DNA of 18,499 nt from Elusimicrobiota bacterium (GTDB taxonomy: Bacteria; CAYTYR01; UBA6262; DAOVJB01), in contig DAOVJB010000007.1 of assembly GCA_030673425.1 (NCBI GenBank), positions 1 through 18,499 of the forward strand. Reading direction: 5' to 3'. Numbering within the stretch: the first letter of the stretch is position 1; every line of letters starts with the position of its first letter. Below the pieces are notes generated by a model. That model saw only the letters and a list, made by a program, of their open reading frames with translations. It was not told where the DNA came from and made no database searches. Shown piece after piece: positions 2,257 through 5,639 of this stretch. Made by a program: the position numbers and the translations under genes.

Positions 2257-3759
2257 ATGGTTAAAGTGAAAGAAAGAAAAATTAATTTATTACTTATGCT
2301 GTTAGTGATGTTAAGTCTTGTTATAATCAAGACTAACGTAGCAAGAGCATATGTAATAGACGGATACTTATTAGATGATTGGGGCATTGATCTTTCAAAG
2401 GCGACTTCCGCAGGACACCTCAATTCTGGTGAAAATTTTCCGTCAGGTGGATTTGATATTGATGCTATAACCGACGATAAGGCTGATTCCAGTAGTGGCT
2501 GGCTACATGTTGGGCCTGGTTGGACATACAATAATTACTTTGATGTTGAAGCCATCTATTTTGATAATGACGGGGCAAATGCGTATATTGCAATAATTCA
2601 AGGTTTACCTAAAGAAGGAGTGAAAATTCAGGGTAATCCATGGCTTCTTCCGGGTGATATTGCAATAGATGCTGATAATGACATGGGTACAGGAGATTAT
2701 GGTTTTGAGTACGGCTTGAGTATTTCAGATGGTCAGTTATATTCAGTAAGTAGCTGGAAGAATTCAATTTATCCAAAATATGGGATTGTTTCTGACCCAT
2801 GGGCAATTAATGTAGGGACTGTAATAAATTCCGTGAATTTTGTCTATAGCGGGAATCAAAACACTCATTATGTGCTGGAGGCAGCGATTCCTCTTGCTTA
2901 TTTAGGATTAAGTGCAGGGCATGGTGATACTGAACGTAATCTTCGGGTACATTGGACCCAGGAATGTGGAAATGATTATTTAACATTAAATGCTGACGTT
3001 AATCCTGTTGTTACTCCGGAACCAGCTAGCCTTATATTATTAGGCAGTGGTCTGTTAGGTTTAATAGGTACTTTCCTTAGAAAAAGATTCCAGGAGGCCA
3101 AGAGAATTTTTGATATAATTGCTTCGTTAATAGGAATAGTTATAACATTCCCTTTAATGTTAATTTTAGGTGGTTTGATAAGGCTTGATTCACGCGGTGA
3201 GATTTTATATAAACAGACACGTGTTGGTGAGAACAGAAGAGAGAAAAGAAATCGCAGGCTTAATAGTTTATTTAATGGTGTAGAACAGAGAAATACCGAG
3301 AGAAGAGAAGAATCATCTTTAGGCAGATTATTTACAATGTATAAACTGAGAACAATGAAAATGGATGCAGAGTCAGGAACCGGTCCTGTATGGGCAACAG
3401 AGGATGACCCGCGAGTGACCAGATTAGGTAAATTTTTGAGGAAATTTCATCTTGATGAAATACCGCAATTAATTAATATATTAAGAGGAGAGATGAGTTT
3501 AATCGGACCAAGACCAGAAAGGCCCAAAATCATAGATAGTTTTAATGGAGATATCCCGAATTATACCAGGAGACTCAGAGTAAAGCCGGGGATAACTGGA
3601 CTTGCTCAGGTTAGATACAGATATGACGAATCACTTGATGATGTAAAAAACAAATTAAGGTATGACCTTTTATATATAAGGAAAATGTGCTGGACATGGG
3701 ATATAAGAGTCATATTTTTGACAATAATAAAAATGCTTACAGGGAAAACAGCAAGATAA
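2257..3759 (+). CDS. PEP-CTERM exported domain fused to a polyprenyl-phosphate sugar transferase
   Basis: A 500-residue protein joining two usually separate families. Residues 1-31 are a signal peptide (cleavage likely after NVARA). Residues 32-250 form a beta-rich exported domain with stretches such as PGDIAIDADND and VLEAAIPLAYLGL, reminiscent of CBM9/DOMON-like folds (tentative). Residues 253-277 are a PEP-CTERM anchor: TPEPAS, a hydrophobic helix, then RKR. Residues 283-500 are a bacterial sugar transferase domain (PF02397 type): a membrane-embedded helix (284-308), YKLRTM (362-367), the catalytic pair D400-E401 in LDEIPQL, SLIGPRPE (414-421) and PGITGLAQV (444-452). Such enzymes move a sugar-phosphate onto undecaprenyl phosphate as the first step of exopolysaccharide synthesis. 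Predicted topology is consistent: the first part outside, the transferase in the cytoplasm. An arginine-rich insertion lies near 325-352. The start may be the ATG at 2257 or GTG at 2266; AGGGAG (2251-2256) is better spaced for the GTG. Confidence 0.9.
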   Translation: MVKVKERKINLLLMLLVMLSLVIIKTNVARAYVIDGYLLDDWGIDLSKATSAGHLNSGENFPSGGFDIDAITDDKADSSSGWLHVGPGWTYNNYFDVEAIYFDNDGANAYIAIIQGLPKEGVKIQGNPWLLPGDIAIDADNDMGTGDYGFEYGLSISDGQLYSVSSWKNSIYPKYGIVSDPWAINVGTVINSVNFVYSGNQNTHYVLEAAIPLAYLGLSAGHGDTERNLRVHWTQECGNDYLTLNADVNPVVTPEPASLILLGSGLLGLIGTFLRKRFQEAKRIFDIIASLIGIVITFPLMLILGGLIRLDSRGEILYKQTRVGENRREKRNRRLNSLFNGVEQRNTERREESSLGRLFTMYKLRTMKMDAESGTGPVWATEDDPRVTRLGKFLRKFHLDEIPQLINILRGEMSLIGPRPERPKIIDSFNGDIPNYTRRLRVKPGITGLAQVRYRYDESLDDVKNKLRYDLLYIRKMCWTWDIRVIFLTIIKMLTGKTAR

Positions 3760-3813: not shown

Positions 3814-3854
3814 ATAAATAAAGGCAGGAGATTTCCCCTCCTGCCTTTATTTAT
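3814..3854 (+). terminator. strong, probably bidirectional terminator
   Basis: ATAAATAAAGGCAGGAG (3814-3830) and CTCCTGCCTTTATTTAT (3838-3854) are exact reverse complements, 17 bp, around a 7-nt loop. The GC-rich core is flanked by A/T-rich arms on both sides. It ends the PEP-CTERM/transferase block and insulates the next operon. Confidence 0.88.
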
Positions 3855-3933: not shown

Positions 3934-4812
3934 ATGAGTGTGGGAAAGAAGATTAAAACTACTTTTTCAGTATGGGGAGAAAGTATCAGAACGATGAAGC
4001 GTTATCCGAAGGTGTTTCTGCCTTTCGGTATAGTTGCTCTTTTTCAAGTTGCTCTTCTGTTTCTTTTATTCTGGGCTCCTCGTTCTCCTATTTCTGTTGT
4101 AATGGCTCCGCCTATTAGAAAATTCTGGGGTGAGATGTATCTCCATTACCCCGTTAATTTTTTACTGCTTCCCAAACTTTTTAATTACGGAAATATAGTA
4201 TTGAGGATTATTCTTGAATCGCTGATGGCAGGTGTTACGGTAGCTATGGTTGTTCAGGCGCTTAAAAAATTTAGTCCCAGGTTCAGGACTAATTGCAAAA
4301 AAGGTATTAGGAAGTATATAACTTTAGTAGCAGTATGGGTGATGTTATTTGCGTTAATTACAATTGTTTTCAGAGTTCCTGTATTTTTAATCACAAAATA
4401 CTATTCTAATTATGTTGGTATTTTCAGGCAGGCGAATTTTCTTCGTGTAGCGGTGTTATCTAGTATATTTATAGCCATTATGATAGAGGCGCTGCTTGCC
4501 TATACTGTACCTGCGGTAATGATTGAACATAAAAGAACATTCAAGGCTATCAAGAGAAGTTTTTCTGTAGTAAGAGGTATATCTTTAGAAACATTTCTTT
4601 TAGTTTTAATACCCACATTGTTGACTTTAATTCCGGTCTTCTTAAAGTTGAAACTTCCTGCCTTGATAGACCGGTTCTTTCCCGAGGTTACATTATATGT
4701 TATAATCTTGGGTATCCTTATATCTTTATTCAGCAACTTTCTGCTTATTATTTCTGTTACAATATTATTTTTGAGGAAAACAGAGACATCAGATGAAGGA
4801 GCATCAAAGTGA
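3934..4812 (+). CDS. six-helix integral membrane protein, unknown function
   Basis: A 292-residue multi-pass inner-membrane protein. Hydrophobic segments lie near residues 28-48, 87-109, 127-153, 170-197, 218-239 and 253-280. The segment YTVPAVMIEHKRTFKAIKRS (190-209) resembles the P-x3-E-x-A-x-R-S pattern often seen in membrane domains of the GPDPase_memb/DUF-type family. That resemblance is only suggestive and no enzymatic domain is present. The ATG at 3934 has agaggt (3921-3926) seven bases upstream. The stop overlaps the GTG start of the lipoprotein gene (GTGA, 4809-4812), so the two are probably translationally coupled and may act together at the envelope. The role is unknown; transport or lipid handling would be guesses. 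Confidence 0.8.
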   Translation: MSVGKKIKTTFSVWGESIRTMKRYPKVFLPFGIVALFQVALLFLLFWAPRSPISVVMAPPIRKFWGEMYLHYPVNFLLLPKLFNYGNIVLRIILESLMAGVTVAMVVQALKKFSPRFRTNCKKGIRKYITLVAVWVMLFALITIVFRVPVFLITKYYSNYVGIFRQANFLRVAVLSSIFIAIMIEALLAYTVPAVMIEHKRTFKAIKRSFSVVRGISLETFLLVLIPTLLTLIPVFLKLKLPALIDRFFPEVTLYVIILGILISLFSNFLLIISVTILFLRKTETSDEGASK

Positions 4813-5639
4813 GAAGGTTTTTAATTTTAATATGCATGCTGTTTTTTATTGTTGGCTGTGGGAATCAGTATCCGGCAGAAAAATTATACTGGAAGGCGAA
4901 TAAATTCAGTGAACAAATTTTCCGTAATCCTAAAGGAACTCCTTTATCGCAGTATGAAAAAGCCATCTCCCGTTTTGAAAAAATTATCAGGAAATATCCT
5001 GATTTAACACAGGCCAAGGAGGCTCAGTTTAAGATAGCCCAGCTTTATGTGGCAAGAGAAGATTTTCCCGGAGCAATAAAGGAGTTTGAAAAAACTATAC
5101 GTAACTATCCTGATGATATTATGTTGTGTGCAAAGGCACAGTTTGCGATTGGTAATTGCTACCAGCAGCAGGGAGACTGGGATAAGGCTCTTATTGCATA
5201 CAGGAAAGTTTTTAGTGATTATAAAGATACGCCGTTTGGATTAGAGGTGCCTTTATATATTGCCCGATATTATGAACGTAACGAACAGAATGTCAATGCT
5301 CGCAAGGCTTTCCGGGAGGCTATTAAAGAGTACAAGAAAATCATTAAGGAACATCCCAAAAGCCAGGGTGCTTATATTGTTCAGGACTATATTGCATTCT
5401 GTTATCTCAGTCTCCAAGACTGGCCTAATGCGATTAAGTCCTTAAATAAATTGATCAATGATTTTCCCAAGACTCCTAAAACTGCCCAGGCTTTGATTAC
5501 CATGGGAGCACTTTATCAAAACCAACTTAAGCAACCTAAAAGAGCAATCTCGGTTTATCAGAAATTTCTAAAGGATTATCCTAAACATAAACTGGTATAT
5601 GCAATTCAGAAAAGATTAGATGAACTTAAAAGCAAGTAA
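4809..5639 (+). CDS. TPR repeat lipoprotein (BamD/YbgF-like)
   Basis: A 276-residue predicted lipoprotein. The signal peptide ends in the lipobox IVGC, so C17 would be the lipidated residue after signal peptidase II cleavage. The rest is a series of tetratricopeptide-type helical pairs, roughly five to seven between residues 45 and 272, with recurring patterns such as ALIAYRKVFSDYKD and AISVYQKFLKDYPK. This is the layout of outer-membrane assembly and periplasmic scaffold lipoproteins such as BamD; a BamD role is possible but not established. It starts with GTG at 4809, overlapping the upstream stop by four bases. The plsY-like gene follows after 28 bases. Such proteins work through protein contacts in the periplasm, and the membrane protein upstream is an obvious candidate partner. 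Confidence 0.85.
   Translation: MRRFLILICMLFFIVGCGNQYPAEKLYWKANKFSEQIFRNPKGTPLSQYEKAISRFEKIIRKYPDLTQAKEAQFKIAQLYVAREDFPGAIKEFEKTIRNYPDDIMLCAKAQFAIGNCYQQQGDWDKALIAYRKVFSDYKDTPFGLEVPLYIARYYERNEQNVNARKAFREAIKEYKKIIKEHPKSQGAYIVQDYIAFCYLSLQDWPNAIKSLNKLINDFPKTPKTAQALITMGALYQNQLKQPKRAISVYQKFLKDYPKHKLVYAIQKRLDELKSK

Follow-up and report, generated by a model that had tools for sequence, protein, structure and literature searches.

The link between exosortases and exopolysaccharides has so far rested on gene neighbourhood and co-occurrence. In the PEP-CTERM proteins sorted by exosortase (PF07589/TIGR02595), a signal peptide is combined with a PEP tripeptide, a short helix and basic residues. This segment was described as lying near the C-terminus ‘virtually without exception’, with the suggestion that the few cases with longer tails may be non-functional (Haft et al. 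2006; PMC1569441), and the partner to which exosortase attaches proteins is still termed an ‘unidentified compound’ (PMC7468200). Monotopic phosphoglycosyl transferases (PGTs) include small and bifunctional members, exemplified by PglC and the Bi-PGTs (PMC10942596), as well as large enzymes such as WbaP and WcaJ.

The window analysed here, a whole stretch of 18,499 nucleotides from a draft metagenome bin (199 contigs, 88% complete), combines the two kinds of protein in a single gene. An uninterrupted frame at 2257–3759 begins with ATG and encodes 500 amino acids (ORF reading of the window), arranged from N- to C-terminus as a signal peptide, an exported domain, a PEP-CTERM segment and a complete monotopic PGT. 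The frame reading and the Pfam and NCBIfam scores bear out the original prediction of one such frame that includes the DE pair of the transferase (D400-E401), and the fusion is confirmed as genuine; we refer to the family of PEP-CTERM/PGT fusions as PEP-PGTs. All features given below for the window lie on the + strand. The signal peptide comprises residues 1–31 (MVKVKERKINLLLMLLVMLSLVIIKTNVARA/Y; 2257–2349) and was read by eye from the sequence as KVKERK followed by 16 hydrophobic residues and ARA/Y. It is followed by the exported domain (residues 32–250; 2350–3006), which was delimited with tblastn and alignment and belongs to a family with the pattern ‘YVIDG..DWG’. The PEP-CTERM segment (residues 254–278, PEPASLILLGSGLLGLIGTFLRKR...; 3016–3090) consists of PEP, a short hydrophobic helix and a basic RKR. 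PF07589 matches at residues 253–275 with 21.6 bits (gathering cut-off 20.7) and TIGR02595 with 19.4 bits (cut-off 16), so that both curated cut-offs are passed by the full tail that had been predicted inside the frame. The fused tails closely resemble, and are near-identical to, those of free PEP-CTERM proteins within the same genomes. Unlike sorted PEP-CTERM proteins, however, PEP-PGTs carry the segment inside the chain or right at its N-terminal end, and in the window protein it is followed by 222 residues.

The transferase part (about residues 282–500) matches PF02397 with 202 bits. It begins with the reentrant membrane helix of monotopic PGTs (residues 282–311, broken at P299; 3100–3189), as indicated by alignments and by an AlphaFold helix at 266–311, and ends with the catalytic domain (residues 356–500; 3322–3756; PF02397 and TIGR03025, PglC and WbaP structures), in which the DE dyad (3454–3459) is near-invariant over 64 aligned sequences. 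AlphaFold produced a good model of this part, with structural matches to PglC (8g1n/8e37, E about 1e-12) and to WbaP (8t53). Between the RVG and RTM motifs lies a charged, Arg/Glu-rich insert of low pLDDT (residues 329–355 by alignment; 3241–3321) that exceeds the inserts of class relatives by 8 residues. Shorter RR..ERR inserts are seen in class relatives, G028 and Latescibacterota (L031), and not in the carriers outside the class (G178, G233 and G388). On the basis of its core, reentrant helix and DE dyad, the enzyme can be assigned to the monotopic PGT superfamily, and its putative activity, on a putative sugar, would be the transfer of sugar-1-phosphate onto undecaprenyl phosphate. The same core, helix and dyad are found in PglC and the Bi-PGTs, and the latter likewise bear an extra N-terminal module, but their module is a sugar-modifying cytoplasmic enzyme rather than an exosortase recognition segment with or without an exported domain. 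The catalytic core is also shared with WbaP and WcaJ, in which a four-helix bundle and a CoA-binding-like domain occupy the place of the PEP segment; a Pfam scan of the window protein gave no match to PF13727. The exosortase-associated glycosyltransferase of the XrtA/PEP-CTERM system (EpsB, TIGR03013) is the second or third best NCBIfam match to PEP-PGTs, yet EpsB belongs to the large PGTs and lacks the PEP segment, and PEP-PGTs score 223–257 bits (226 bits for the window protein) against a curated cut-off of 393.

The domain order was sought in four other genomes of the same class (G001–G004; the genome of the window is G000). The fusion joint is present in all four, at five further loci, and thus with the window in five of five genomes and at six loci. 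The class PEP-PGTs comprise 484 aa in G001, 440 aa in G003, and 308 and about 300 aa in the two copies of G004, whereas in G002 the N-terminal part is interrupted by a contig gap. A 77-residue profile of the joint detected two more PEP-PGTs among 386 genomes, and a phylum search a third; the searches around G178 and G090 covered 2 and 4 genomes, respectively. These three proteins from outside the class (G178, G233 and G388) have the same core and bring the total to nine proteins from eight genomes in three lineages, probably three phyla, which branch deeply and apparently are uncultured. Searched against plasmid records, the joint gave no match. Two full-length matches to the junction, in G096 and G364, were rejected as ordinary large PGTs without PEP, and the tripeptide is missing from the otherwise close PGTs of G028, G029 and Latescibacterota.

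In all nine PEP-PGTs the PEP tripeptide is invariant, and its distance to the RVG motif is exactly 68 residues, without insertion or deletion; none of the 72 other PGTs collected has PEP at this place. In each class pair compared, change in the PEP segment is mostly synonymous (dN/dS about 0.1–0.2). The joint is thus true coding sequence under selection. The frame across 3050–3120, for which long-read confirmation had been proposed, is open in all nine proteins and credible without such a read, and a frameshift hidden near 3060–3110 is ruled out by the conservation of the joint without indels. Although a draft bin of 199 contigs invites the suspicion of an assembly or frameshift artefact, relatives bearing a joint of identical spacing rule this out, and we regard its probability as negligible.

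The three genes outside the class start with ATG-CCN-GAR-CCN, i.e. with Met-PEP, such that PEP forms residues 2–4 and a signal peptide is missing. The start is preceded by a ribosome site of GGAGG or GGGGGG in G233 and G388, and by a weaker one (AGGGAAAG) in G178. PF07589 scores above its cut-off for G233 (residues 2–20), and below it for G178 and G388 on their own sequences (13–14 bits). As relatives thus occur as a PGT alone from ATG-PEP, the PGT of the window might be translated mostly from an internal start, giving two proteins and no functional fusion. An AGGAGG at 3092–3097 would suit such a start, but at the spacing needed the frame offers no codon other than ATT. Furthermore, no internal ATG, GTG or TTG is conserved: the window has ACT immediately ahead of PEP, and relatives vary between Phe, Ile and Met just before the DI motif. 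The PEP segment within the fused frame is, in addition, under purifying selection. An internal start is therefore highly improbable.

When 81 PGT catalytic segments, each starting after the PEP segment so that the tag was left out, were placed in a tree, the nine PEP-PGTs grouped together, joined by just one protein without PEP, that of G028 (L006; branch support 98/95). The PEP label requires 2 changes on this tree, compared with a mean of 8.7 for shuffled labels and with none of 500 shuffles as low, and a topology uniting the nine PEP-PGTs in one clade withstands the test (p-AU 0.25). G001, G002 and G004 also have larger-PGT paralogues, which are placed elsewhere in the tree, implying that the PEP-PGT is an extra, dedicated PGT in these genomes. 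The simplest reading of these patterns is a single fusion event whose product later spread vertically or horizontally, while recombination within the common tail added or removed exported domains. In G002, G003 and G004 the fusion is adjoined by arrays of free PEP-CTERM genes, which would favour such an exchange.

The region ahead of the PEP-PGT core is far less uniform. Across the class loci the exported domain is homologous in three, replaced in one, and vestigial or absent in two. That of the window is common to G001 and G002, and equivalents of its signal peptide occur at the matching position in G001 (AHA/Y) and G004 (AQA/Y). The exported domain of G003 is unrelated, with a weak likeness to the ‘cistern’ PEP-CTERM family. 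One PEP-PGT copy of G004 retains only ∼40 residues of the domain, and the adjoining gene is a free PEP-CTERM protein with an intact homologous exported domain (tblastn); in the second copy a leader and a short linker stand in its place. A free PEP-CTERM protein of a distant genome (G046, L143 1364–2218) also carries the exported-domain family of the window. The domain had been predicted to be exported and beta-rich; ‘beta-rich’ stands on weak evidence (pLDDT about 40). The AlphaFold models of this domain are poor, with two attempts unusable for structure search, and for this reason we give it no fold name. The conserved part of the family is hence the PEP-PGT core, and the exported domain is its variable part.

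These differences bear on the cleavage model of the original prediction when it is taken as the main function, so that the purpose of the fusion would be to make, by exosortase cleavage of one polypeptide, a surface domain for release together with a transferase tethered in the membrane. Signal peptide and exported domain occur together in the window, G001, G002 and G003, the N-terminal domain is exchangeable and cargo-like (including the weak ‘cistern’ likeness in G003), and the separate PEP-CTERM gene beside the G004 PEP-PGT is what a ‘separable cargo’ predicts. Against this, two in-class loci almost lack the exported domain and three relatives begin at Met-PEP, leaving them nothing to release, yet PEP and the spacing are still kept; in addition, exosortase was not found in G000. 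Release of cargo alone cannot explain a family of this make-up. Co-production is doubtful as the purpose of the fusion and does not hold as its general function, although such a split may take place in the window protein.

Exosortase was found in five carriers, namely two of the four class relatives (G001 and G004) and all three carriers outside the class. Against a background of 69 of 386 sampled genomes this amounts to an enrichment with p about 0.02–0.03, drawn from few independent lineages. Neither Pfam nor a class profile detected exosortase in G000, G002 or G003, though all three bear PEP-CTERM proteins (with seven matches in G002 (L038, L102) and three in G003 (L039)). A candidate in G002 was dropped, as it sits in a phosphate-transporter-like frame. 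Incompleteness (88–95% complete) may not explain the missing exosortase in all three genomes, and the tails of G002 and G003 may be served either by an exosortase on missing contigs or by a different protease. Conversely, the fusion is the only PEP-CTERM protein detected in G001, yet exosortase is present (others may have escaped the short model). The fusion is not adjacent to exosortase in the class of the window. The PEP-PGT gene of G178 has on one side the gene for PrsT (TIGR02917 above cut-off, opposite strand) and on the other a PilZ-like gene followed by exosortase, which is two genes away. Polysaccharide genes abound in the exosortase clusters of G001, G004 and G233, and no PGT was found in the 18–19 kb read from each, which would leave room for the PEP-PGT as the initiating enzyme. 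A papain-like peptidase gene (C1-type by eye) adjoins the fusion region of G001 (L037 11131–11904, −) and another directly precedes the exosortase of G004 (L099 16095–16871, +), and thus ties the fusion locus of the one to the exosortase locus of the other.

The absence of detected exosortase from three carrier genomes would suit a reading in which the PEP-CTERM helix is a plain membrane anchor of the PGT, with exosortase irrelevant and PEP a leftover. Large PGTs likewise bear membrane helices ahead of the reentrant helix, and in the PEP-less relative of G028 (L006) the PGT is preceded by two short membrane segments. An anchor, however, needs no PEP, and the tripeptide is invariant across distant lineages, even as residues 2–4 of a cytoplasmic enzyme; moreover, the G178 protein resides within a PrsT/exosortase locus and all three carriers outside the class encode exosortase. 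The mere anchor, which had been offered as the alternative to cleavage, is thus disfavoured, and we consider it unlikely.

Linkage to PEP-CTERM genes is also evident in the window, where a free PEP-CTERM protein (1390–2073, +; Pfam/NCBIfam matches) is encoded directly upstream of the fusion; these two are the only PEP-CTERM proteins found in G000. Further upstream lies a gene for an HTH-plus-HD regulator resembling c-di-GMP phosphodiesterases (58–870, +), with relatives upstream of the fusion in G001 (L037 10199–10981), G003 (L039 6508–7329) and G004 (L040 3752–4642), and this protein may regulate the fusion gene. An intrinsic terminator (3814–3854, +) is located just 3′ of the fusion gene, and an Rfam scan of the window gave no match. 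The conserved neighbours downstream (3934–5639, +), a membrane protein with a weak GPDPase_memb match and a TPR lipoprotein, are also found downstream in G001, G002 and G004. Beta-propeller-like proteins with ‘GVATDSSGNIYVTG’ repeats are encoded near the fusion in G002 (L038 5880–7632) and G004 (L041 10314–12023).

The most likely common function, to which we give an even chance, is docking, in which the PEP tag holds a dedicated PGT at the exosortase machinery. The recognition segment (PEP, short helix and basic residues) would stand at a fixed distance before a glycan-starting PGT and lie N-out/C-in, with PEP toward exosortase and the enzyme toward the cytoplasm. This orientation, with PEP on the outer face and RKR on the inner one, is inferred from the positive-inside rule; it would suit an exosortase client as well as a PGT, whose core is cytoplasmic, and agrees with the originally predicted arrangement, in which a membrane helix joins an exported part to a basic cytoplasmic flank followed by the enzyme in the cytoplasm. 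Docking would couple the sorting of PEP-CTERM proteins to the synthesis of their glycan partner, and the proposed link of protein sorting to the start of polysaccharide synthesis is supported in this respect. In the class of the window, an exported domain bearing a signal peptide has been added ahead of the PEP-PGT; exosortase would cut at PEP and free this domain as an ordinary surface protein, while the helix and enzyme would stay in the membrane. Against docking stand the failure to detect exosortase in G000, G002 and G003, the distance between fusion and exosortase in the class of the window, the low PF07589 scores of G178 and G388, and the clade member of G028 (L006), which has no PEP. 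A bolder proposal, to which we assign a low probability, is that the glycolipid begun by PEP-PGTs is itself what exosortase joins PEP-CTERM proteins to. If so, the exosortase acceptor would be an undecaprenyl-linked glycan, and the tag would hold acceptor synthesis at exosortase; a loose analogy for a glycan acceptor is the type IX sortase, which joins cargo to A-LPS.

The papers searched contained no PEP-CTERM/PGT fusion, and the PGT papers among them name other fused domains, PEP-CTERM not included. PEP-PGTs are, against this literature, a previously unrecognised family. They illustrate that a PEP-CTERM tag need not be C-terminal, and annotation rules that require such a place would therefore miss them. 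The conserved covalent fusion of a recognition segment to a glycan-starting enzyme counts as ‘Rosetta stone’ evidence that the two are directly linked, and the small PEP-PGT protein of G388 (222 aa) is an object on which the exosortase–glycan link can be tested. The fusion thereby offers a handle on what it is that exosortase attaches proteins to.
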